From an uncultured Lachnospiraceae bacterium (GTDB lineage Bacteria > Bacillota > Clostridia > Lachnospirales > Lachnospiraceae), in NCBI GenBank assembly GCA_944383325.1, contig CALWPC010000032.1:124001-188000 (forward strand): a DNA stretch of 64,000 nucleotides. Direction: 5' to 3'. This document shows positions 15,753 through 64,000 of this stretch, one piece after another. Position numbers and translations under genes: made by a program. Numbering within the stretch: the first letter of the stretch is position 1; each line of letters opens with the position of its first letter. Below the pieces are notes generated by a model. That model worked only from the letters and a program-made list of their open reading frames with translations, did no database searches and had not been told where the DNA came from.

Positions 15753-18245
15753 TTAACTGGCGGGAAAAGAATCAATTAACTGTGCACTATATTGGAGGAT
15801 ATACAGCGCGTCCTCCGCGTCAATAACGTGATCCCCGTTGACATCCGCCAACTGCTGCTGCGCCTGTGTCAGCTGGGTGATCTGCGCTGCATGCTGCAGC
15901 GCTAAAAGCGCGTCTTCCGCAGTGATTTTTTCGTCTCCGTTAATATCGCCGAGCATCCCCACCGGTTCCGTTGTCGGTCCCGGCTCGTCCGTAGGCTGCG
16001 GTTCGTCGGTCGGTTTCGGCTCATCCGTAGGCTGCGGTTCATCCGTAGGCTGCGGCTCATCTGTAGGCTGCGGCTCATCTGTGGGAGCCTGTCCATTCAT
16101 GAGCGCTAAAATCTCACTCTCCGAAAGAATGCGTGCATACCCGTTCACATCGCCGATCCGAATTCCCTTAGGCGTCTTGAAATTATTCATCATCAGCGTT
16201 TCCCAGAGCACGTCGCCTCCGCCGCCAATCGTGAGCACCGTATTTTCCCTTGTGAGGAAATCGAGCAGCGTAATGCCGTGACTGTAGCATTCAGATGTGG
16301 ACGATGCACGGTATTTCTGCTTCCAACCAAATCCCAGGTTAAATGACTGACCTCCTACATACATTCCGCTTTTCTCAATCGTTGCACTGGTAGTATTCCA
16401 TACATTATATTCTGTCAGAGATACCTGTTTTCCGTCGATATAAGTGACAATATCATCGTTCTGAATCACCATCGCTACGAAATGCCAGGAACCTTTGTCC
16501 GCAACCAGAGTATTTCTCGTTCCACTCTTATTTGCAAAAATATAGAAATAATTTTTTTGCTGGAAATCCATCGACACGCCATACTCACCGGAATACGGGT
16601 TGACATTCCAACCCGAAACACAGTCGTCCTCGGAGAAGCCGATACTTCCGAACGTACTGATCTGAAGTCCGCTCATAACGTCGCCCTCCCGCATCAGGCT
16701 GTACGTGCCGCCGTTATCTTCAAAACGGTACTGATAACCGTCCTCCCCTTCTGCATGCAATGTCCAGTCCAGTGACTTCACTGCGCGGTGTGTGCCCGAG
16801 AACGTAAGCGCAACGCCTTCCGCGCTGACATTCGACGGGATATACTCCCAGTAGGTCAGCGTAACGCCATTTTTCCATGTCGGATAGCCATTGACATAGG
16901 TCGGTTCCTCCGACAGATCAAGACCGGCGAACGGATTTTCAATCACTACCTGACCGTTCGTTCTGTCCGAATTTTGACCCTGAAGCTCCCACACTTCTCC
17001 CCGCTCGCTGTCCGTCACGAGTTTCGGAGCCGCGTCCGTCGCCGCAGGCTTCGGAGTCGCAGTCGGCGCCAGAGTCGGCTGTGCGGTCGGCTGAGGAGTC
17101 GGATCTGCAGACGGCAATGGCACTGCGGTCGGCACCGGCGTCGCACTCGGATCAGGATCCTGAGGGCCCGCATATTGCTGCACAAGCGTCGGTACATCGT
17201 TCGCCTCATCAAGCCAGTATGCATAAGGAGCTTCCTCAAATGCCGCTACCGTGCCCAATGTATTCGGCTTATTTCCCTCCGCTCTGCTTCCGGTCGTATT
17301 ATCATATACATTTCCCCGCGCCACAATCGTCGCCGGGAGCGTCGAATCCGGATAACTGAACTGGTGCGGATCGTTTACATCCTTAAAATAATTGTTTTCA
17401 ATAAGAACGGACGCATAGCAGTCCGCCCCGATACAATAACTGTTGCCGCTGCTCGTATAATAGTTATTATACACATGCACTTTTCCGTACATCACTCGCG
17501 GCATACGCTGATCCACATTATCCGCAAACCAGTTATGATGATAGGTCACTTTCAGATGGCCGTAATCCTCGTCGTGGTCACCTGCTCCGGAACTGATCAG
17601 ACAGGACAGCCGGTGATCGTGATCATCGGTCGAATAAGAAAATTTACACCATGAAACGGTAATATAATTTGCAGCGCTTTTGATATCCAGGTTGCCGTCT
17701 CCTCCGTCTGAAATATCCAGATGATTAAACCAGATATGGTGCGCTTTATTGCCCTCCACATTAATCACGTCGTCGGGCGTTCTGGGTTCTTTTAAACACC
17801 CCTCCATAATCAGGTTGCTCACAATGATATTACTCTTATTATTAATCGTAATACCACCTTTAAGCTTGGCGTTCGCATCCATTCCGACAATGGTTTTATT
17901 GCTGCCGATGGAGATCGCTCCGCCGCTGCTAGAAATCGCCTCAATCGTACCCGAGATCAAAATGACCCGCGGCACATCATCGCTGACTAGTGAAACAAAC
18001 TCCTCTTTTGTCGTGACAATCTGCGGTGCTGCGTCTCCGCCGCCCGTCACCTTGTCCATGCCGGCCCCGCTGACAGACGCCCAACCAGTCAGCTCCGCCA
18101 TATCCAGATAGTCATCAATGCTGACTTCACTCTGGCCTGATGAAGAATCCGCCGCCTGCACACTTGACCAATCGCCAACCGTACTACCCAAAATACTGCT
18201 GACTGTCAATAACAGCGCCAGGCACATGACCAGTTTCTTCTTCAA
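15753..18245 (-). CDS. Secreted pectate lyase (PL1-like) with LamG-like domain and C-terminal dockerin
   Basis: 830 residues from a TTG start that has GGGGGA 6 nt upstream. Domains in order: signal peptide (1-31), parallel beta-helix pectate lyase (about 55-345; NVEGNKAHHIWFNHLDISDG, KVTYHHNWFADNVDQRMPRV), a Pro/Thr linker, a LamG/concanavalin-like domain (about 400-690), a PTDEP-repeat linker, and a two-repeat dockerin (GDINGDEKITAEDALLALQ, ADVNGDHVIDAEDALYILQ). It cleaves de-esterified homogalacturonan by beta-elimination outside the cell. The dockerin implies docking on a cohesin partner; cohesin-like proteins are encoded at 39424, 61029 and 62097. A promoter lies at 18380-18408. Confidence 0.93.
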   Translation of the reverse strand: MKKKLVMCLALLLTVSSILGSTVGDWSSVQAADSSSGQSEVSIDDYLDMAELTGWASVSGAGMDKVTGGGDAAPQIVTTKEEFVSLVSDDVPRVILISGTIEAISSSGGAISIGSNKTIVGMDANAKLKGGITINNKSNIIVSNLIMEGCLKEPRTPDDVINVEGNKAHHIWFNHLDISDGGDGNLDIKSAANYITVSWCKFSYSTDDHDHRLSCLISSGAGDHDEDYGHLKVTYHHNWFADNVDQRMPRVMYGKVHVYNNYYTSSGNSYCIGADCYASVLIENNYFKDVNDPHQFSYPDSTLPATIVARGNVYDNTTGSRAEGNKPNTLGTVAAFEEAPYAYWLDEANDVPTLVQQYAGPQDPDPSATPVPTAVPLPSADPTPQPTAQPTLAPTATPKPAATDAAPKLVTDSERGEVWELQGQNSDRTNGQVVIENPFAGLDLSEEPTYVNGYPTWKNGVTLTYWEYIPSNVSAEGVALTFSGTHRAVKSLDWTLHAEGEDGYQYRFEDNGGTYSLMREGDVMSGLQISTFGSIGFSEDDCVSGWNVNPYSGEYGVSMDFQQKNYFYIFANKSGTRNTLVADKGSWHFVAMVIQNDDIVTYIDGKQVSLTEYNVWNTTSATIEKSGMYVGGQSFNLGFGWKQKYRASSTSECYSHGITLLDFLTRENTVLTIGGGGDVLWETLMMNNFKTPKGIRIGDVNGYARILSESEILALMNGQAPTDEPQPTDEPQPTDEPQPTDEPKPTDEPQPTDEPGPTTEPVGMLGDINGDEKITAEDALLALQHAAQITQLTQAQQQLADVNGDHVIDAEDALYILQYSAQLIDSFPAS
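15973..16086 (-). repeat. Tandem 18-bp coding repeats (PTDEPQ linker)
   Basis: Seven near-identical 18-bp units within the pectate lyase gene encode the PTDEPQ-type linker between LamG and dockerin. Length may vary between strains by slippage without loss of frame. Confidence 0.8.
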
Positions 18246-39423: not shown

Positions 39424-40092
39424 TTAATACTCTACCGATACCGCTTCATTATCGATCTCACCATCGATCGTATATCCAAACAAACTGCCGTCCTTGCCGA
39501 CTACTTCCTTTACACGCACCTGCACATCTCCGGTTCCGCTCCCGACCACTTTAAACAATGGATTGACGTCAAACTCGCTGTGCTGAAAATCCGGTGTATT
39601 CGATAAGGTAATTTCTACCTCGTTCGGGCTGATTTCCTCGCAGCTTACCGTTTGTTCCGGCGAGAAAACCGCACTATCAAACATCAGCACATCCGGATTA
39701 TATGTAATGGAAAGCGTAACATGATCCACCTTGGTCACATGATAAATGTTGCAAAAAAAGCTCGTCGCACTTCCGCGCATCTGTATTTGAGCAATATCTG
39801 TAAGGTCTGCCGCATACTTCAAAACCGCCAGTGCATCTTCGGCATCTACATTCCCATCGTGATTAAAATCCGCAATTTCCCTTTCCTGCTCTTCAAGTTC
39901 GATCTGTGCAGCAAGCCTGAGGATTTCCAGTGCGTCTGCGGCATCGATGACTCCATTGCCATCAAGGTCACCGACGAGCTGCTTTTTATCCGCCGCATTC
40001 ATGTCGGGTGTCTGTAGCTCAGCTGCAAATGATGGAACAGCTACACAAGCGCTTAAAAACGCCGCCGCTGCCGTCGTTATAAATCTCTTCAT
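39424..40092 (-). CDS. Secreted protein with N-terminal dockerin and cohesin-like C-terminal domain
   Basis: 222 residues. Signal peptide (1-23, ending AVPSFAA), dockerin with two calcium loops (GDLDGNGVIDAADALEILR and ADFNHDGNVDAEDALAVL, about 41-98), then a beta-sandwich domain (about 103-222; VDHVTLSITYNPDVLMFDSA) that resembles cohesins. Such a dockerin-plus-cohesin protein could act as an adaptor. It is a single-gene unit; the ATG has a strong GAGGGGGG site. The promoter (40153-40183) contains a G9 tract and may be phase-variable. Cohesin assignment is by pattern only. Confidence 0.75.
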   Translation of the reverse strand: MKRFITTAAAAFLSACVAVPSFAAELQTPDMNAADKKQLVGDLDGNGVIDAADALEILRLAAQIELEEQEREIADFNHDGNVDAEDALAVLKYAADLTDIAQIQMRGSATSFFCNIYHVTKVDHVTLSITYNPDVLMFDSAVFSPEQTVSCEEISPNEVEITLSNTPDFQHSEFDVNPLFKVVGSGTGDVQVRVKEVVGKDGSLFGYTIDGEIDNEAVSVEY

Positions 40093-57391: not shown

Positions 57392-58927
57392 TTACTCTTC
57401 TCCCGGAAGTACCAGGGGCACCACCGGATAATTGCCTGGATTCCATCCATCCGGCTCATCGAGCTGTCTTGTAGACGGGTTATATTTTGCCGCTAAAAAC
57501 GCATAGGGAGCATAGGACGTCTGAATCTCCTGATCCGTTAAAAGCTTTTCATACGACGGCGCGACAACCTCAAGATCAATCAGGTTGCCTTCCATATCCA
57601 TCGTGCCATACTCCGCATATCTGGCGTTTTCAGGCAAAAAGCCATTCCCGCCCATTTGCACAAAACGGTCAAAATTTGGCGTGTCCTTATTGGAAATATG
57701 CTTATCCATCCTGCAATTATAAAACACAACCATAGCCGGTCCGTTCCAGGGGCGCCCAAGGCTGTAGGACTCCTCTTTCGGCGCGCTGCTCTCTGTAGTC
57801 GGATCGCAAGTCAACATGCAATCCTTAAACAAAAATCCGTACGGCTGCGTTTCCGCCGTCGATGCAGCCGTAATATGACCTGCATTATAAGGACTGTTAA
57901 TTGTACAGCTCTCAAATACCGCCGTACCGTTTCCGTAAATAAAATCAACCGTACCCTCAATGTAACAATTCTCATAATATACCCGGTTGCTCTGGTTCAT
58001 CAGAAGCGTATCCTGCCGTCCGATCATTTTGCACTCATAAAATGCACTGCGATCGGCATCCACACGAAGCGCCAGGCCCTGCGTCTGATTTTTACTGCTT
58101 CGGATATCCTTCTCCCTCTGCTCGATCGTCAGCGCATTTCCATACCAGTTTCCATCCTCGCCTCGGGCATATTTGCGGTAATCTTCGCGTTCTTCCTCCG
58201 TTACATAGATGTTATAAGAATTTTCAAACATCATATTTTTTGCAATAAAATCATGCGCGGTAGATGCGATCACCGTGCTCGCATGATTGGAACTTGCGCT
58301 CACGTTTCCGTCGGAAATCGACCAGTAGTACATACCGCACCCGTAATAAAAGGTAAGATTGGCCTCTTCTTCAGCATCTGGATACATAGCCTCATAAGTG
58401 ACGTATGGCGCCGTAAGCGTCGTATGCTCACGATACGTACCGGGGGCAAACCGCAGGGTAATGCGCTCCTCCTCACAGGTCGGCGCGTGCTGATTGACAT
58501 AATCGACCGCTTCCCCCAAGGTCCGGAAACAATGGGTTCCCGTCGTATACGATTTGCTGTCCACATAAATGACGCGCTCTTCCTGCGGTTTTTCATATCC
58601 GAAATTCGAATATTCTCCAACTGCGGCCTTCAAAAGCAGTAACGCGTCGTCCGCACTGACCAAGCCGTCCGCGTTAACGTCAGCCCGCTCCTTTGTCTGT
58701 TCATCTGCCTCATACAGTCCGGCATTGATCTGCAGCGCGCGCAGTGCATCACGAACCGTATACCTGCCGTCCCCGTTGAGATCCCCCTTGTCGAGCAGCA
58801 CCGGCTCCGACCAATCCGACGTCACAGCCGCCTTTGCCCGAACCGCCGGCAGGCAGACCGTGAAGGCAGCAATTCCAAGCGCCGCAGCAACGTACCTCCC
58901 GCATCTTCTCCATTTATGATTTCTCAA
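57392..58927 (-). CDS. Secreted pectin methylesterase (CE8) with N-terminal dockerin
   Basis: 511 residues. Signal peptide (1-33), dockerin (about 47-105; GDLNGDGRYTVRDALRALQ and ADVNADGLVSADDALLLL), then a CE8 beta-helix (about 118-480). CE8 motifs: QTQGLALRVDADRSAFYECK, GRQDTLL (catalytic Asp), GTVDFIYGNG (second Asp) and SLGRPWNG. It removes methyl esters from homogalacturonan, preparing it for the pectate lyases at 58940 and 15753. It follows the lyase gene on the same strand by 12 bp and is probably co-transcribed. Confidence 0.95.
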   Translation of the reverse strand: MRNHKWRRCGRYVAAALGIAAFTVCLPAVRAKAAVTSDWSEPVLLDKGDLNGDGRYTVRDALRALQINAGLYEADEQTKERADVNADGLVSADDALLLLKAAVGEYSNFGYEKPQEERVIYVDSKSYTTGTHCFRTLGEAVDYVNQHAPTCEEERITLRFAPGTYREHTTLTAPYVTYEAMYPDAEEEANLTFYYGCGMYYWSISDGNVSASSNHASTVIASTAHDFIAKNMMFENSYNIYVTEEEREDYRKYARGEDGNWYGNALTIEQREKDIRSSKNQTQGLALRVDADRSAFYECKMIGRQDTLLMNQSNRVYYENCYIEGTVDFIYGNGTAVFESCTINSPYNAGHITAASTAETQPYGFLFKDCMLTCDPTTESSAPKEESYSLGRPWNGPAMVVFYNCRMDKHISNKDTPNFDRFVQMGGNGFLPENARYAEYGTMDMEGNLIDLEVVAPSYEKLLTDQEIQTSYAPYAFLAAKYNPSTRQLDEPDGWNPGNYPVVPLVLPGEE

Positions 58928-58939
58928 AAAGACACCTCT

Positions 58940-60757
58940 CTATCTCCCGATAGCAGCCTCGGGATTTTCTATCAGAAACTGTAAAAATACCTCCAGATTC
59001 GTAAACGACGTATCCTTATAAGCGGCTTTTCCATCGTCCGGATCATTCTTATCCAAACCGGCAAAATCTTCCCACGCGTCGCTCATACCGTCTTTATCTG
59101 TATCAACATAGGAAGGATAGGAAGCTAACCCGGGATACTGCCCGTCTACAGATGCAGCATATACCGGATTGCTGTTGCTTGAAGGGATAGTCCCCGTCCA
59201 ACCCGGCGACTCGTAAATATAATCGATCGTTTTTCCGGTTCCGTCCTGATACGTTTTCACAATCGCCGCATCCACCGTATCGCGGAACAGCGACGCGCCG
59301 GCATACAGCTCCACTTCCTCCGCCGCCTTCTGTGCGCTCTGAACCTGTGTCATCATCGAATTTTCATAAGGCGCGTCAAGCAGATATTTCGTTTGATCGA
59401 GCACAAGACCGCTCTTTACATAGTACGGATTTTTGTCAGTAGCCAACACATCATCCTCAAAGCGAATCAGAGAAATCTGATCATCAGGCAGCTCTCCGTC
59501 CATCATATTGCCGGACGCATACATATGATTGCCGATGCTAGCTTCAGAGAACATGTATTTTCCAGTCGAAATCGGACCGCTCTTGAAATAGTTATTAATA
59601 TAATTATATGTAGTCAAATACAACAGTGTCCCGTTTTCATCCGCATCACTGGATTTTCCTGAACTCTGTCCCGACCAGTTATAGACCAGATTGTTAATAA
59701 ATTCTACATGCTTTTCGCTGCTATCCAGGTCACTGGACATATATGTTCCAATCATCGGCATCCGGCTGCTGTGCGTCACATACATATTATGATGGAACGT
59801 CACTTTCGATCCCTGCGCTACGCGGATCAACGAACCCATACCGTGACGCGACTTTCCGACATTAACGGAACTCGTAATACTCTGTGCGACAATATTCCAC
59901 TGAACAGACACACGGTCACTGACTGCATCGTATGAATTTCCGTCTCCGCTTGGAGAAACAGAAAGCGTCTCATCGGTTCCCCATGTCACGCTGCAGTGAT
60001 CAACAATCACATCTTTGGACCCCTTCACATCGACACTGTCGTTCTGTTTGCCCATCTGGTCGCCGGAGCGAATGCGCAGATAGCGCACAATCACATTGCT
60101 CGTATCGCTAATATGCAGTCCGTAATTTGCCAGACATATTCCATCGCCCGGAGCTGTCTGTCCTGCTATCGTAACGTCGCCGTTCTTGATCGTGAGATTA
60201 CTGTTCAGGTAAATCGTTCCCGATACCTTAAATACGATCGTGCGCGGGCCTTTCATTTCTATCGCCGCACGCAGAGAACCCTCGCCGCTGTCGTTTAAGT
60301 TGGTTACTTCAACTACTTGGCCGCCGCGGCCGCCGGTTGTATATTTCCCATAGCCGTCAGCACCCAGAAAACCAATGCCGTCTTCTGCCTCCTCAAACCC
60401 TTCTGGAATATAATACTCTACATCATCCAGATATTGCTCATATCCAAGCTGATAATCGGCCAGGCCGGCAATATCCTGTAATATCATAAGTGCGTCCCGA
60501 ACAGAAAGCGTCCCGTCCTCATTCAGATCTCCATTGACAACATGCGCATCCTGTTTTGCCACCGTACCGGAAATCGCCTGCAGCGCCTTCAGCGCATCAC
60601 TTGCGTCAACAATACCGTCATTATTCACATCCCCGCGCTTTAAAGCGCTGCTGACTGTTCCCTGTCTCGCAAGAGTGGTTTCTGTATCCGCCCATACCGG
60701 AGTAGTAACCGCCATGGAAATCGCCAATGACAAAGCCATAACTTTCTTCAGTCTCAT
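58940..60757 (-). CDS. Secreted pectate lyase (PL1-like) with N-terminal dockerin
   Basis: About 605 residues from ATG 60757 (GAGGAGG upstream). Signal peptide (to about residue 24, TTPVWA), dockerin (about 41-106; GDVNNDGIVDASDALKALQ and GDLNEDGTLSVRDALMILQ), then a lyase beta-helix (ADGYGKYTTGGRGGQVVEVT, VDHCSVTWGTDETL, VTFHHNMYVTHSSRMPMIG), and a C-terminal calcium-binding segment (DTDKDGMSDAWEDFAG). Cleaves pectate outside the cell by beta-elimination. Upstream of the methylesterase gene. Confidence 0.93.
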   Translation of the reverse strand: MRLKKVMALSLAISMAVTTPVWADTETTLARQGTVSSALKRGDVNNDGIVDASDALKALQAISGTVAKQDAHVVNGDLNEDGTLSVRDALMILQDIAGLADYQLGYEQYLDDVEYYIPEGFEEAEDGIGFLGADGYGKYTTGGRGGQVVEVTNLNDSGEGSLRAAIEMKGPRTIVFKVSGTIYLNSNLTIKNGDVTIAGQTAPGDGICLANYGLHISDTSNVIVRYLRIRSGDQMGKQNDSVDVKGSKDVIVDHCSVTWGTDETLSVSPSGDGNSYDAVSDRVSVQWNIVAQSITSSVNVGKSRHGMGSLIRVAQGSKVTFHHNMYVTHSSRMPMIGTYMSSDLDSSEKHVEFINNLVYNWSGQSSGKSSDADENGTLLYLTTYNYINNYFKSGPISTGKYMFSEASIGNHMYASGNMMDGELPDDQISLIRFEDDVLATDKNPYYVKSGLVLDQTKYLLDAPYENSMMTQVQSAQKAAEEVELYAGASLFRDTVDAAIVKTYQDGTGKTIDYIYESPGWTGTIPSSNSNPVYAASVDGQYPGLASYPSYVDTDKDGMSDAWEDFAGLDKNDPDDGKAAYKDTSFTNLEVFLQFLIENPEAAIGR

Positions 60758-60954
60758 ACCCTTACTTCCTCCTCTGATGCTGCGCCTGGACATATACAAC
60801 TGATTTTTTCATCTATGTATTGAAAATTGGAACGATAGCACAAAAAAACAGCCGTATATCCCCAGTTTTTTATTGATCTTATACATCATACCATACAATA
60901 AAACGAAAGTAAAGATTTGCAAACAGATGTTCCTTTAAAGATACAAAAGAACAG

Positions 60955-60986
60955 AAAAAAGGACACCGACTTTCGTCAGTGTCCTT
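60955..60986 (-). terminator. Terminator of the cohesin-like surface protein gene
   Basis: AAAGGACACTGAC-GAAA-GTCGGTGTCC followed by TTTTTT on the minus strand. Confidence 0.8.
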
Positions 60987-61028
60987 TACAAACGATATTG
61001 ACATTCAGAATGCTAAACCTAACACGTA

Positions 61029-61883
61029 TTAGATTGTAGCTTTCTTCTTCAGCGTAACAAGTACAACACCTGCTGCAAGAGCAAGAACTGCCATTGTAGC
61101 TACCGGAGCAACGTCAGCAGTCTTAGCTGCGCTTGTGCTAGAACCTGTTGAAGAAGATCCTGTTGAGGAGCTTCCTGTTGAGGAGCTTCCTGTTGAGGAA
61201 GAACCGCCAGTTGTAGAAGAACCACCAGTTGTGGAACCACCTGTCGGTGCTTTTGTTGCGTCAACAGTCGGTGCTTTTGTTGCATCTGCGCTCGGTGCAG
61301 GCTCGTCACTAGAAACAGGTGTCTCAGTCGGAGCTGATGTCGGATCTGCGCTCGGTACAGGCTCATCAGTAGGAACCGGCGCCTCAGTCGGAGCTGCAGA
61401 AGGAGTTACTTCAGGCATAATAGCCTGTGTATCAACAGCAACTTCGCATGTGCTCAAATCATCTTTAACAGCTGCGGTACCCTTAATAACTCTCATTGTA
61501 GATTCTGCAGTTACATCTGAAAACTTAACTGTAAACACTGCGCCATCCCAGTCATTGTTCTGAGCCTTTGCGCCAGTTGCAACAACATAAGTCTCGCCGC
61601 CTTTAGAAGCTGCCGGATTCTTAACACCAGTACCACCGTCGCCAAGATAATCCAATCTGAAATCTGTAACATAGGATACATCTGCATCTGTAGTAGTTGC
61701 ATCTGTATATACGATACCGATATCAAATGTCTCCAGGTTGCCGCTTGCATAAACAGTAACAGTCACCGTACCGTCTTCATTTAATACTTTATCAACAGAT
61801 ACGGAATACTCTCCAGCAAATGCCATTACGCTCATGGATAAAACCATAGCCAGTGCAACGACTGTTGCAAGTAATTTCTTCAT
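61029..61883 (-). CDS. Wall-anchored surface protein with cohesin-like domain
   Basis: 284 residues. Signal peptide (1-23, ending VMAFAG), a beta-sandwich domain of about 135 residues (YSVSVDKVLNEDGTVTVTVY, DWDGAVFTVKFSDV) with cohesin-like spacing, a Pro/Thr/Asp linker, a Gly/Ser-rich stretch of SSTG repeats, then a C-terminal signal: AAKTADVAP, hydrophobic segment, KKK. The sorting motif is unusual, resembling a degenerate PKTGD/LPxTG. It would be the cell-wall anchor for dockerin enzymes. The cohesin call is by pattern only. Confidence 0.7.
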   Translation of the reverse strand: MKKLLATVVALAMVLSMSVMAFAGEYSVSVDKVLNEDGTVTVTVYASGNLETFDIGIVYTDATTTDADVSYVTDFRLDYLGDGGTGVKNPAASKGGETYVVATGAKAQNNDWDGAVFTVKFSDVTAESTMRVIKGTAAVKDDLSTCEVAVDTQAIMPEVTPSAAPTEAPVPTDEPVPSADPTSAPTETPVSSDEPAPSADATKAPTVDATKAPTGGSTTGGSSTTGGSSSTGSSSTGSSSTGSSSTGSSTSAAKTADVAPVATMAVLALAAGVVLVTLKKKATI

Positions 61884-62096
61884 CTCTTAATCTCTTCCTT
61901 CCTATTAATATGTTATAGCAATACGTTTACATCACAAAATATAACATCTGTGCATCTGAATGTCAAGAAAAATTTCATTTTTTCACATGCTCATAGCATA
62001 TGTCAACTTGGCTTCGTTCCGCAACTGTCTCACATTGGAATGTAAGACATATACTGCCACATTACCTTCCTTTCGATAATGCCGAAACTACATCAA

Positions 62097-62885
62097 TTAC
62101 AGTTCCGGAATCAGTTGTGCCGCGTACTGTAAAATTTGCAGCGCATCGTCTGCACTGATCATTCCATCAGCATTGACGTCAGCCGCATTGGTCTGTGCTT
62201 CATCCAACTCCATCAGCTGAGCTGCATTCTGCAGAACAAGAAGCGCATCCTGTGCGTCCACAACACCGTCCGCATTGACATCGCCGCGCGTGTACGGCTC
62301 TTCTGACGGCTGAGACGTCGGCTCCTCCGTCGCCGGAGTATCCGTCGGATCCGGCGCAGCGCTCTTGAAAAATGTAACTGTCGAACCCTGCGTTGCCACA
62401 TCGGAAGCTTCCGTATTAAAACCTAATTCCTCGACGCTGATCTCCAGTTGTGTCGTCGTGTTATCTTTTGAAATTCTCTGACACAGCACAAATGTCAGCT
62501 GACCGACCTGGCCGGTCGCCTCAAGCGCCGCATCTTCGGTAGTGATGCCCGCAATCCGAATGCTTCCGTTCGTGTCCGTATTGACATCCTGATACCCCTC
62601 AAACGCTGTAATTCCATTCAAAATCTCATCGCCCTCGGGTTCCTGGACTTCCAAGCAGCGGCTATCGTACGTCACCGTAAAATCATAGCACTGCATATCA
62701 ATCGTCCCGTCCACATAAATCGGAACAGTTACAATGCTCTCGTCTCTTGTCGCCGAATAGACCGTGACGTCACCCAACCGCACCGTCGGTTTCTGCTCCT
62801 CCGCATTTGCAAACACAAAAACCTGCGCGCTCACCGCCAATGCCAACACAGCGATACAGGCAATCACTTTTCTGATATGTTTCAT
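62097..62885 (-). CDS. Secreted cohesin-dockerin adaptor protein
   Basis: About 262 residues from ATG 62885 (GAGGA 6 nt upstream). Signal peptide (to about residue 27), cohesin domain (about 33-172; TVTVYSATRDESIVTVPIYV, YDFTVTYDSRCLEV, GSIRIAGITTED, GQLTFVL), a Thr/Pro/Glu linker, and a two-repeat C-terminal dockerin (GDVNADGVVDAQDALLVLQ, ADVNADGMISADDALQILQ). With both modules it can bridge one dockerin enzyme to another cohesin. It lies between the surface protein and the LamG-dockerin gene. Confidence 0.85.
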   Translation of the reverse strand: MKHIRKVIACIAVLALAVSAQVFVFANAEEQKPTVRLGDVTVYSATRDESIVTVPIYVDGTIDMQCYDFTVTYDSRCLEVQEPEGDEILNGITAFEGYQDVNTDTNGSIRIAGITTEDAALEATGQVGQLTFVLCQRISKDNTTTQLEISVEELGFNTEASDVATQGSTVTFFKSAAPDPTDTPATEEPTSQPSEEPYTRGDVNADGVVDAQDALLVLQNAAQLMELDEAQTNAADVNADGMISADDALQILQYAAQLIPEL

Positions 62886-62951
62886 ACGAAGTCCTCTTTT
62901 CATTTAGACAGCGCTCTCCTCCATTACAGAGGAGAGACTGCCTGTGTGCTA

Positions 62952-64000
62952 TTAATCAAGCTGTGCTGCAATTCTAAGAATTGTAAGTGCATCGTCTGCA
63001 GTAACATTGCCATCGCCATTCAGATCTGCAATTGCCAACTGCGTTTCATCTAATGTTGTCAACTGTGCCGCATGCTGAAGAACAAGCAGTGCATCTTCTG
63101 CCGTTGCAGCGCCGTCCTGGTTCACATCGCCGCGAACCGTCGGATTCACATGCGGATCGTTTGCCTTTGCATCTTCATACAATGCCTGAACCTGTGCGTC
63201 AGAAAGCTCCTCGTCATAGAAACGCAGACATGTCACATAGGAATCTGTTGTCGTCTGGTAATTGCTCTTCGATCCTGCTCTGTTTACATAGCCAAGATAT
63301 ACGGAAGTATCTTCTGCTGTCAGGAAAGACATAATCGAAGTTGCTCCCTGATTTTGCGTTCCGCCATAAATCAGATTGTTTGTAACATTTGCAAAACTCG
63401 GAAGTCCCTCATAAGTTGCTACAGAGTCATTGTCAATTTTCCACTGATAATAACCATCATAGAAACGAGGTCCAACATTGTCGTTTGCGTTCTCAATCTT
63501 TACACCGTCAATGTATGTCTGGATACCGGAGTTTGCCATCGTCATCGTTACATAATGCCACTCCGTATTTGCCGCCAAAATTGCAGCAGATTGCTCCTCT
63601 GAAGCGGAGAAGGTGAAATCATTTTTCAGCGTGCTGATCACTGCAGCATCGGATGTACCTTCCTGGAATACCGCCATACCGTTACTCATAGAGTACAAAA
63701 TGGAATATGCCTTGATCGTCTTCGCTGTTTCCTGCATCTTGGACTGATAAATCAGCTTTGCTGTATCTACAAAAGATACTGCCGCCGAATTAGCAACCGT
63801 TCCGTCTTCCGCCGCATCCTGCTTCAGCCAGTAGGAGATGGTTGCTCCGGTCATATCATCTCTTCCTGCAAACGGATTCTCAGCGAGCTGAAGTGCGGAA
63901 GTCTCTGTTGCGGAGCTTGCCGCCAACTTCACAACGTTGCCCATCGTCGCATCGTTTACAATCGAAGGATCTGCTACCTGATTGCGTCTTCCCTCATTAG
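62952..64000 (-). CDS. LamG-like domain and C-terminal dockerin of a larger secreted protein (5' end beyond window)
   Basis: The frame is open to the window edge, so the N-terminal part, including any signal peptide and catalytic domain, is missing; the internal ATG at 63944 is not a credible start. Visible are a LamG/concanavalin-like domain (ENPFAGRDDMTGATISYWLK, WHYVTMTMANSGIQTYIDGV, VTCLRFYDEELSDAQVQALY) and a dockerin (GDVNQDGAATAEDALLVLQ, ADLNGDGNVTADDALTIL). The same LamG-linker-dockerin tail ends the pectate lyase at 15753, so this is likely another polysaccharide-active enzyme. Confidence 0.85.
   Translation of the reverse strand, partial: NEGRRNQVADPSIVNDATMGNVVKLAASSATETSALQLAENPFAGRDDMTGATISYWLKQDAAEDGTVANSAAVSFVDTAKLIYQSKMQETAKTIKAYSILYSMSNGMAVFQEGTSDAAVISTLKNDFTFSASEEQSAAILAANTEWHYVTMTMANSGIQTYIDGVKIENANDNVGPRFYDGYYQWKIDNDSVATYEGLPSFANVTNNLIYGGTQNQGATSIMSFLTAEDTSVYLGYVNRAGSKSNYQTTTDSYVTCLRFYDEELSDAQVQALYEDAKANDPHVNPTVRGDVNQDGAATAEDALLVLQHAAQLTTLDETQLAIADLNGDGNVTADDALTILRIAAQLD

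Follow-up and report, generated by a model that had tools for sequence, protein, structure and literature searches.

Multi-cohesin scaffoldins define the cellulosome, yet dockerins number in the dozens in some bacteria that have next to no cohesins, and what the dockerins of R. albus bind has been stated as an open question (PMC4081043). A 64,000-nucleotide stretch of an uncultured Lachnospiraceae genome (the window; C32:124001-188000 of genome G000, 1.99 Mb in 53 contigs, 97.9% complete) raises this question again. In the whole genome, 29 dockerins exceeded the Pfam cut-off against one Pfam cohesin, that of protein 62097. What would these dockerins bind?

Five adjoining genes of the window encode a CE8-dockerin protein, a PL1-dockerin protein, the surface protein 61029, the cohesin-dockerin adaptor 62097 and a LamG-dockerin protein (Table 1). 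All ORFs lay at the positions given by an initial annotation, and its gene map was right. One start needed correction: the LamG-dockerin protein had been placed at 63944, and its gene actually runs past the window end to a full length of 994 aa. Every cluster protein except 61029 had a dockerin over the Pfam cut-off, and so did 15753 and 39424. Pfam matches over the cut-off also bore out the annotated dockerin-methylesterase (57392; Pectinesterase and Dockerin_1), the dockerin-pectate lyase and the further lyase (58940 and 15753; Pectate_lyase_4 and Dockerin_1) and the LamG-dockerin protein; the Laminin_G_3 match of 15753 was below the cut-off. Two full calcium loops had been claimed for the dockerins. 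We observed two intact loop repeats each in most, though not all, of the dockerins that we inspected; the cluster and adaptor dockerins had both.

The adaptor gene lies 48 bp from the LamG-dockerin gene, and the PL1 gene 12 bp before the CE8 gene. In the PL1-dockerin gene, the ATG at 60757 is preceded by AGGAGG and is the more likely true start. The region's best promoter match and the terminator-like hairpin, both consensus matches only, flank 61029 alone. A single operon spanning the whole cluster was rejected as the likely arrangement, given the separate promoter-like and terminator-like sites of 61029; the LamG-dockerin/adaptor pair and the PL1/CE8 pair look like separate expression units.

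Table 1. Coordinates of features in the window (plain numbers), in the window genome and in other Lachnospiraceae genomes (contig or locus prefix).
Feature	Position	Strand	Evidence
CE8 pectin methylesterase; N-terminal dockerin (58631-58789), Arg-type, group B	57392..58927	-	Pfam PF01095 2.1e-34, PF00404 4.2e-7; repeat sequences
PL1-type pectate lyase; N-terminal dockerin (60476-60634), group B	58940..60799	-	Pfam PF00544 3.1e-9, PF00404 1.1e-6
Terminator-like hairpin, 13 pairs and T-rich tail, directly 3' of the 61029 gene	60958..60987	-	Consensus match only
61029, surface protein: one divergent cohesin-like domain (61389-61814, aa 24-165) between a signal peptide and a Pro/Thr/Ser linker; tail AAKTAD + hydrophobic + KKK	61029..61883	-	Pfam-negative; orthologue, profile and fold data
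Sigma-70-like promoter match TTGACA-17-TATATT (11/12), upstream of 61029	61938..61966	-	Consensus match only
62097, monovalent adaptor: cohesin (62463-62747) joined by a linker to a group A dockerin at the C-terminus (62127-62285); signal peptide	62097..62903	-	Pfam PF00963 6.6e-7, PF00404 1.1e-10
LamG protein; C-terminal dockerin (62979-63131, group A)	62952..64000, continues beyond window end; whole gene C32:186952-189936	-	Pfam Laminin_G_3 and Dockerin_1
PL1 pectate lyase with a LamG-like region and a group A dockerin (15795-15953) at the C-terminus	15753..18245	-	Pfam PF00544 1.1e-26, PF00404 5.7e-10
39424: dockerin (39814-39972), then beta-rich domain, weakly cohesin-like	39424..40092	-	PF00404 1.7e-9
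O-mannosyltransferase-like membrane protein in cohesin cluster, window genome	G000 C32:190107-193190
O-mannosyltransferase-like membrane protein in cohesin cluster	L170:6164-9235		PMT Pfam match
G182 fusion, 742 aa: cohesin, dockerin, second dockerin without first calcium loop, CE8	L171:8420-10648
Two G422 proteins (2057 and 1841 aa): LRR or LamG, two dockerins, 61029-like domain directly after first dockerin	L251:3953-10126; L251:11669-17194
Pairs of large dockerin protein and TM-anchored single-cohesin protein	L115:5126-8875; L116:5628-9863; L117:4994-9074; L118:4912-8419; L120:4568-8866; L123:2512-7595
Tandem cohesin genes beside a dockerin protein of ~1300 aa	L173:8897-15034; L174:1916-7800; L114:291-6618

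The annotation of 62097 as a cohesin-dockerin adaptor was confirmed, with both modules over the Pfam cut-off (cohesin 30.0 bits, cut-off 24.1) and orthologues in G243, G422 and G423. The protein has one cohesin, one dockerin and a signal peptide, the last by inspection, as expected of a secreted monovalent adaptor. Its cohesin profile matched solved cohesins (best 4ums, 1.3e-6). A contig search with the 62097 cohesin as query gave no match; when the family was scanned with a cohesin profile of four sequences, a cohesin-dockerin orthologue and, in G182, a fusion protein were recovered.

Protein 61029 had been annotated as a wall-anchored cohesin-like protein, and this stood in part. We found no Pfam PF00963 match at E <= 1 for 61029 or its three orthologues. 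In hhalign, the 61029-family profile and the classical-cohesin profile matched weakly (P 7e-4, probability 27%). Against the cohesin profile, the G243 orthologue scored 17.4 bits, reached by 0/1000 shuffles, and 61029 itself 6.2 bits (8/1000 shuffles); the G422 and G423 orthologues were matched by 27/1000 and 200/1000 shuffles, respectively. In the reverse direction, 62097 scored 11.2 bits against the 61029-family profile (0/1000 shuffles). With either profile, the top three of all window ORFs of at least 120 aa were 62097, 61029 and 39424. A PDB sequence search with the 61029-family profile gave no cohesin and no match. A search of 200 family genomes with the 61029 sequence by itself gave only two matches, both spurious, at loci with DeoR-type regulator ORFs.

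The initial annotation had proposed fold prediction as a check. By Foldseek, the AF2 model came closest among PDB chains to two cohesins of C. perfringens, 2vo8 and 2jh2 (TM 0.45-0.54, E 1e-4 to 1e-3). The nine-stranded model is a single-sequence prediction of low confidence (pLDDT 60, pTM 0.54), and clathrin-adaptor beta-sandwiches scored nearly as high as the cohesins. The 61029 gene adjoins the adaptor gene wherever the cluster is intact. Profile comparison, fold model and synteny together suggest that 61029 is probably a divergent cohesin.

The tail of 61029 is a variant of the LPXTG/KTGD signal and not a textbook sortase motif. It is near-identical in the orthologues from three genomes, and the window genome has five sortases. 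We infer that 61029 would be surface-anchored through this sortase-like tail. Other Lachnospiraceae encode small KTGD-tailed proteins with a Pfam-positive single cohesin (G018, G027) or profile-matched single cohesins that adjoin a large dockerin protein (G369, G164), and thus the 61029-type architecture has precedent in the family.

Single cohesins also occurred in other settings (Table 1). Many Lachnospiraceae have a tight gene pair, mostly within 30 bp, that encodes the anchored cohesin protein and a large secreted protein whose dockerin is C-terminal. This is often the genome's sole such pair, and several lie near clpC. In three other family genomes, with 8-21 dockerins each, cohesin genes stand in tandem; one product has an FN3-like region at its C-terminus, another a KTGD tail.

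The dockerin of 39424 was upheld by Pfam; the cohesin-like part of its annotation was not, and we did not accept 39424 as a cohesin. Its score against the 61029-family profile was weak (7.1 bits, 2/1000 shuffles), the single-sequence model of its C-terminal domain was poor (pLDDT 54), and no cohesins were among the PDB fold matches of that model. The earlier description of each cohesin-like protein as single-module is supported for 62097 (one Pfam cohesin) and in part for 61029, and was not supported for 39424. Two large G422 proteins have a 61029-like domain next to a dockerin (Table 1).

We assigned the 29 dockerin proteins of the genome to classes by Pfam and inspection. Nine were pectin enzymes: two CE8, two PL1 with N-terminal dockerin, 15753, and four PL1-like proteins with Ig domains, of which one was below the Pfam cut-off and one was assigned by close similarity to its neighbour. 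The rest were four peptidases or amidases (M15, M23, CHAP, Amidase_6), two PF00756 esterases (one just below the cut-off), two transglutaminases, two LRR/Bsp-like proteins, two LamG proteins, the adaptor, 39424, a beta-propeller protein and five of unknown class. No polysaccharide-degrading families other than pectin enzymes were recognised among the 29. The carbohydrate side of the dockerin set is pectin-centred; the set as a whole is not pectin-dedicated, contrary to what had been claimed. Dockerins on peptidases, transglutaminases and LRR proteins also occur in R. flavefaciens (PMC2930009).

The genome search that had been proposed as a check supported the scaffoldin-free part of the earlier proposal. 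A classical-cohesin profile found no multi-cohesin protein and exactly one cohesin each in the window genome, G421, G422, G423 and G182. A multi-cohesin scaffoldin is unlikely in this group of genomes. Multiple dockerin enzymes are present, as in a classical cellulosome; the locus is not one, because a non-catalytic scaffoldin with at least two cohesins was not found.

Conservation of the cluster was assessed in three MAGs labelled 'uncultured Lachnospiraceae' (G421, G422, G423), which were recovered by a contig scan with the PL1-dockerin alignment. Their rabbit-gut origin is read from the name 'Lapin'. G421 appears identical to G243 (same contig coordinates and counts), of the window genome's own family. 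The three MAGs have 36, 45 and 52 dockerins and one classical cohesin each. Their cluster runs from a LamG wall protein and an O-mannosyltransferase-like membrane protein to the cohesin-dockerin adaptor, the 61029 orthologue (TAD tail), a GH95-dockerin protein, one or two more anchored 61029-like proteins, and then PL1-dockerin, GDSL (CE12-like)-dockerin and CE8-dockerin proteins; in G423 it is split across two contigs. The two upstream genes are also present in the window genome beyond the window end, as judged by position, length and end sequence. The O-mannosyltransferase-like protein may glycosylate the Pro/Thr linkers. Conservation in three other genomes indicates that the cluster is not a chance arrangement. 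In G182, where no 61029 homologue was detectable, the fusion protein (Table 1) points to a Rosetta-stone link between adaptor and CE8.

The dockerins fell into two groups. Recognition position 11 was Arg, in one of the two repeats, in 4/4 N-terminal PL1/CE8 dockerins and in 0/25 of the others (Fisher 4e-5, a value inflated by relatedness, for a pattern noticed in the data and not predicted beforehand). About two lineages gave rise to the four Arg-type dockerins. In the relatives, the pattern recurred in PL1, CE12 and CE8 dockerins, with one exception, a C-terminal dockerin with Arg in G422. The adaptor's own dockerin is of group A, and the adjoining PL1 and CE8 enzymes are of group B. Two kinds of cohesin and two groups of dockerin suggest two pairings.

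We propose a surface cohesin-dockerin system that works without a multi-cohesin scaffoldin, a reading to which we give a probability of roughly 60% and which comprises four inferred steps of decreasing certainty. Protein 61029 would be a divergent single cohesin held on the cell surface by its sortase-like tail. Many of the genome's group A dockerin proteins would dock directly onto it. The group B pectin enzymes (PL1 and CE8, and in relatives also CE12) would bind the classical cohesin of 62097. The group A dockerin of the adaptor would then plug into 61029, so that the dockerin type is switched and methylesterase and lyase are brought together at the surface. We favour type switching because the dockerins of the adaptor (group A) and of the neighbouring enzymes (group B) differ in group and because the adaptor is linked to CE8 by the G182 fusion. 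Such a role has been proposed for monovalent adaptors generally, in the available text of a 2024 survey (PMC11557425).

Three other readings were weighed against this system. The cohesin of 62097 might be the only true one, present at low valency, with 61029 an ordinary beta-sandwich surface stalk or adhesin and most dockerins binding partners of other species or acting otherwise, possibilities also discussed for R. albus. This would agree with the absence of a Pfam match for 61029, with the failure of its profile to find a cohesin among PDB sequences, and with R. albus, where 58-90 dockerins accompany at most one adaptor cohesin (PMC4081043). We consider it unlikely, since profile and fold evidence point 61029 to the cohesins and its gene always adjoins that of the adaptor in intact clusters. 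A conventional multi-cohesin scaffoldin might instead have been lost from the draft assembly, as scaffoldin genes are repetitive and the genome is in 53 contigs at 97.9% completeness. That is very improbable, because each of the four relatives likewise has no multi-cohesin protein and a single classical cohesin, and the loss would be needed in five genomes.

The initial annotation had suggested head-to-tail chains, in which the cohesin of one 62097 molecule takes up the dockerin of the next (and that of 39424) and enzymes add on to the linear polymers. Both modules are present in 62097, and self-aggregation through the cohesin and dockerin of one protein has been proposed for R. bromii Amy4 (available text of PMC5814915). 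The difference in group between the adaptor dockerin and those of the neighbouring enzymes, the adaptor-enzyme pair indicated by the G182 fusion and the negative fold search for 39424 all speak against it. Chains are possible, at poor odds; the two dockerin groups and the fusion would fit a type-switching adaptor better.

In its proposed working the locus resembles the R. bromii amylosome, and in composition R. albus. The amylosome, as described in the available text, is likewise a substrate-focused cohesin-dockerin complex of a gut Firmicute, with few cohesins per scaffoldin, a cohesin and a dockerin on one protein (Amy4) and sortase-anchored scaffoldins (PMC5814915). Its substrate is starch, whereas pectin is concerned here; its binding has been shown, whereas our locus is known from sequence. 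It also has a scaffoldin with two cohesins (Sca5), and its dockerin amylases number five, compared with the 29 dockerin proteins of the window genome; a divergent, Pfam-negative anchored cohesin is not among the features described in that part of the source. R. albus shares with the window genome dozens of dockerins, at most one recognisable cohesin and a cohesin-dockerin adaptor of ScaF type (PMC4081043). No anchoring cohesin is known there, and CBM37 has been proposed instead, whereas here an anchored candidate adjoins the adaptor; its dockerins form one group, and ours form two (PMC4081043).

Lachnoclostridium sp. MSJ-17 and Paenibacillus guangzhouensis, termed 'scaffoldin-containing', also have single-cohesin proteins, C-terminal TM anchors and monovalent adaptors, and bacteria of this type are non-cellulolytic with up to 39 dockerin proteins (PMC11557425, available text). 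They differ in having at least one protein with two cohesins, and no pectin locus is described in that text. Because the survey asked for a multi-cohesin gene, this genome and others of its kind would fall outside the criterion as given there (PMC11557425). The C. perfringens X82 cohesins, the nearest solved fold to the 61029 model, are also single cohesins off a scaffoldin; they sit on glycosidases with host-glycan substrates, whereas 61029 is a non-catalytic surface protein. For 'pectosome/pectinosome' in the literature, the papers listed all concerned liposomes and drug delivery.

The locus offers a specific, testable receptor candidate, 61029, beside a lone adaptor and conserved across genera, and would carry the cohesin-dockerin principle over to a gut system centred on pectin. 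More tentatively, at somewhat less than even odds, 61029 may found a divergent, Pfam-invisible cohesin family that serves as a single-socket surface receptor for dozens of Lachnospiraceae dockerins; R. albus-like bacteria may hide similar receptors, and scaffoldin-free surface docking may be common. The locus could thereby help to explain dockerin-rich bacteria with hardly any recognisable cohesins.
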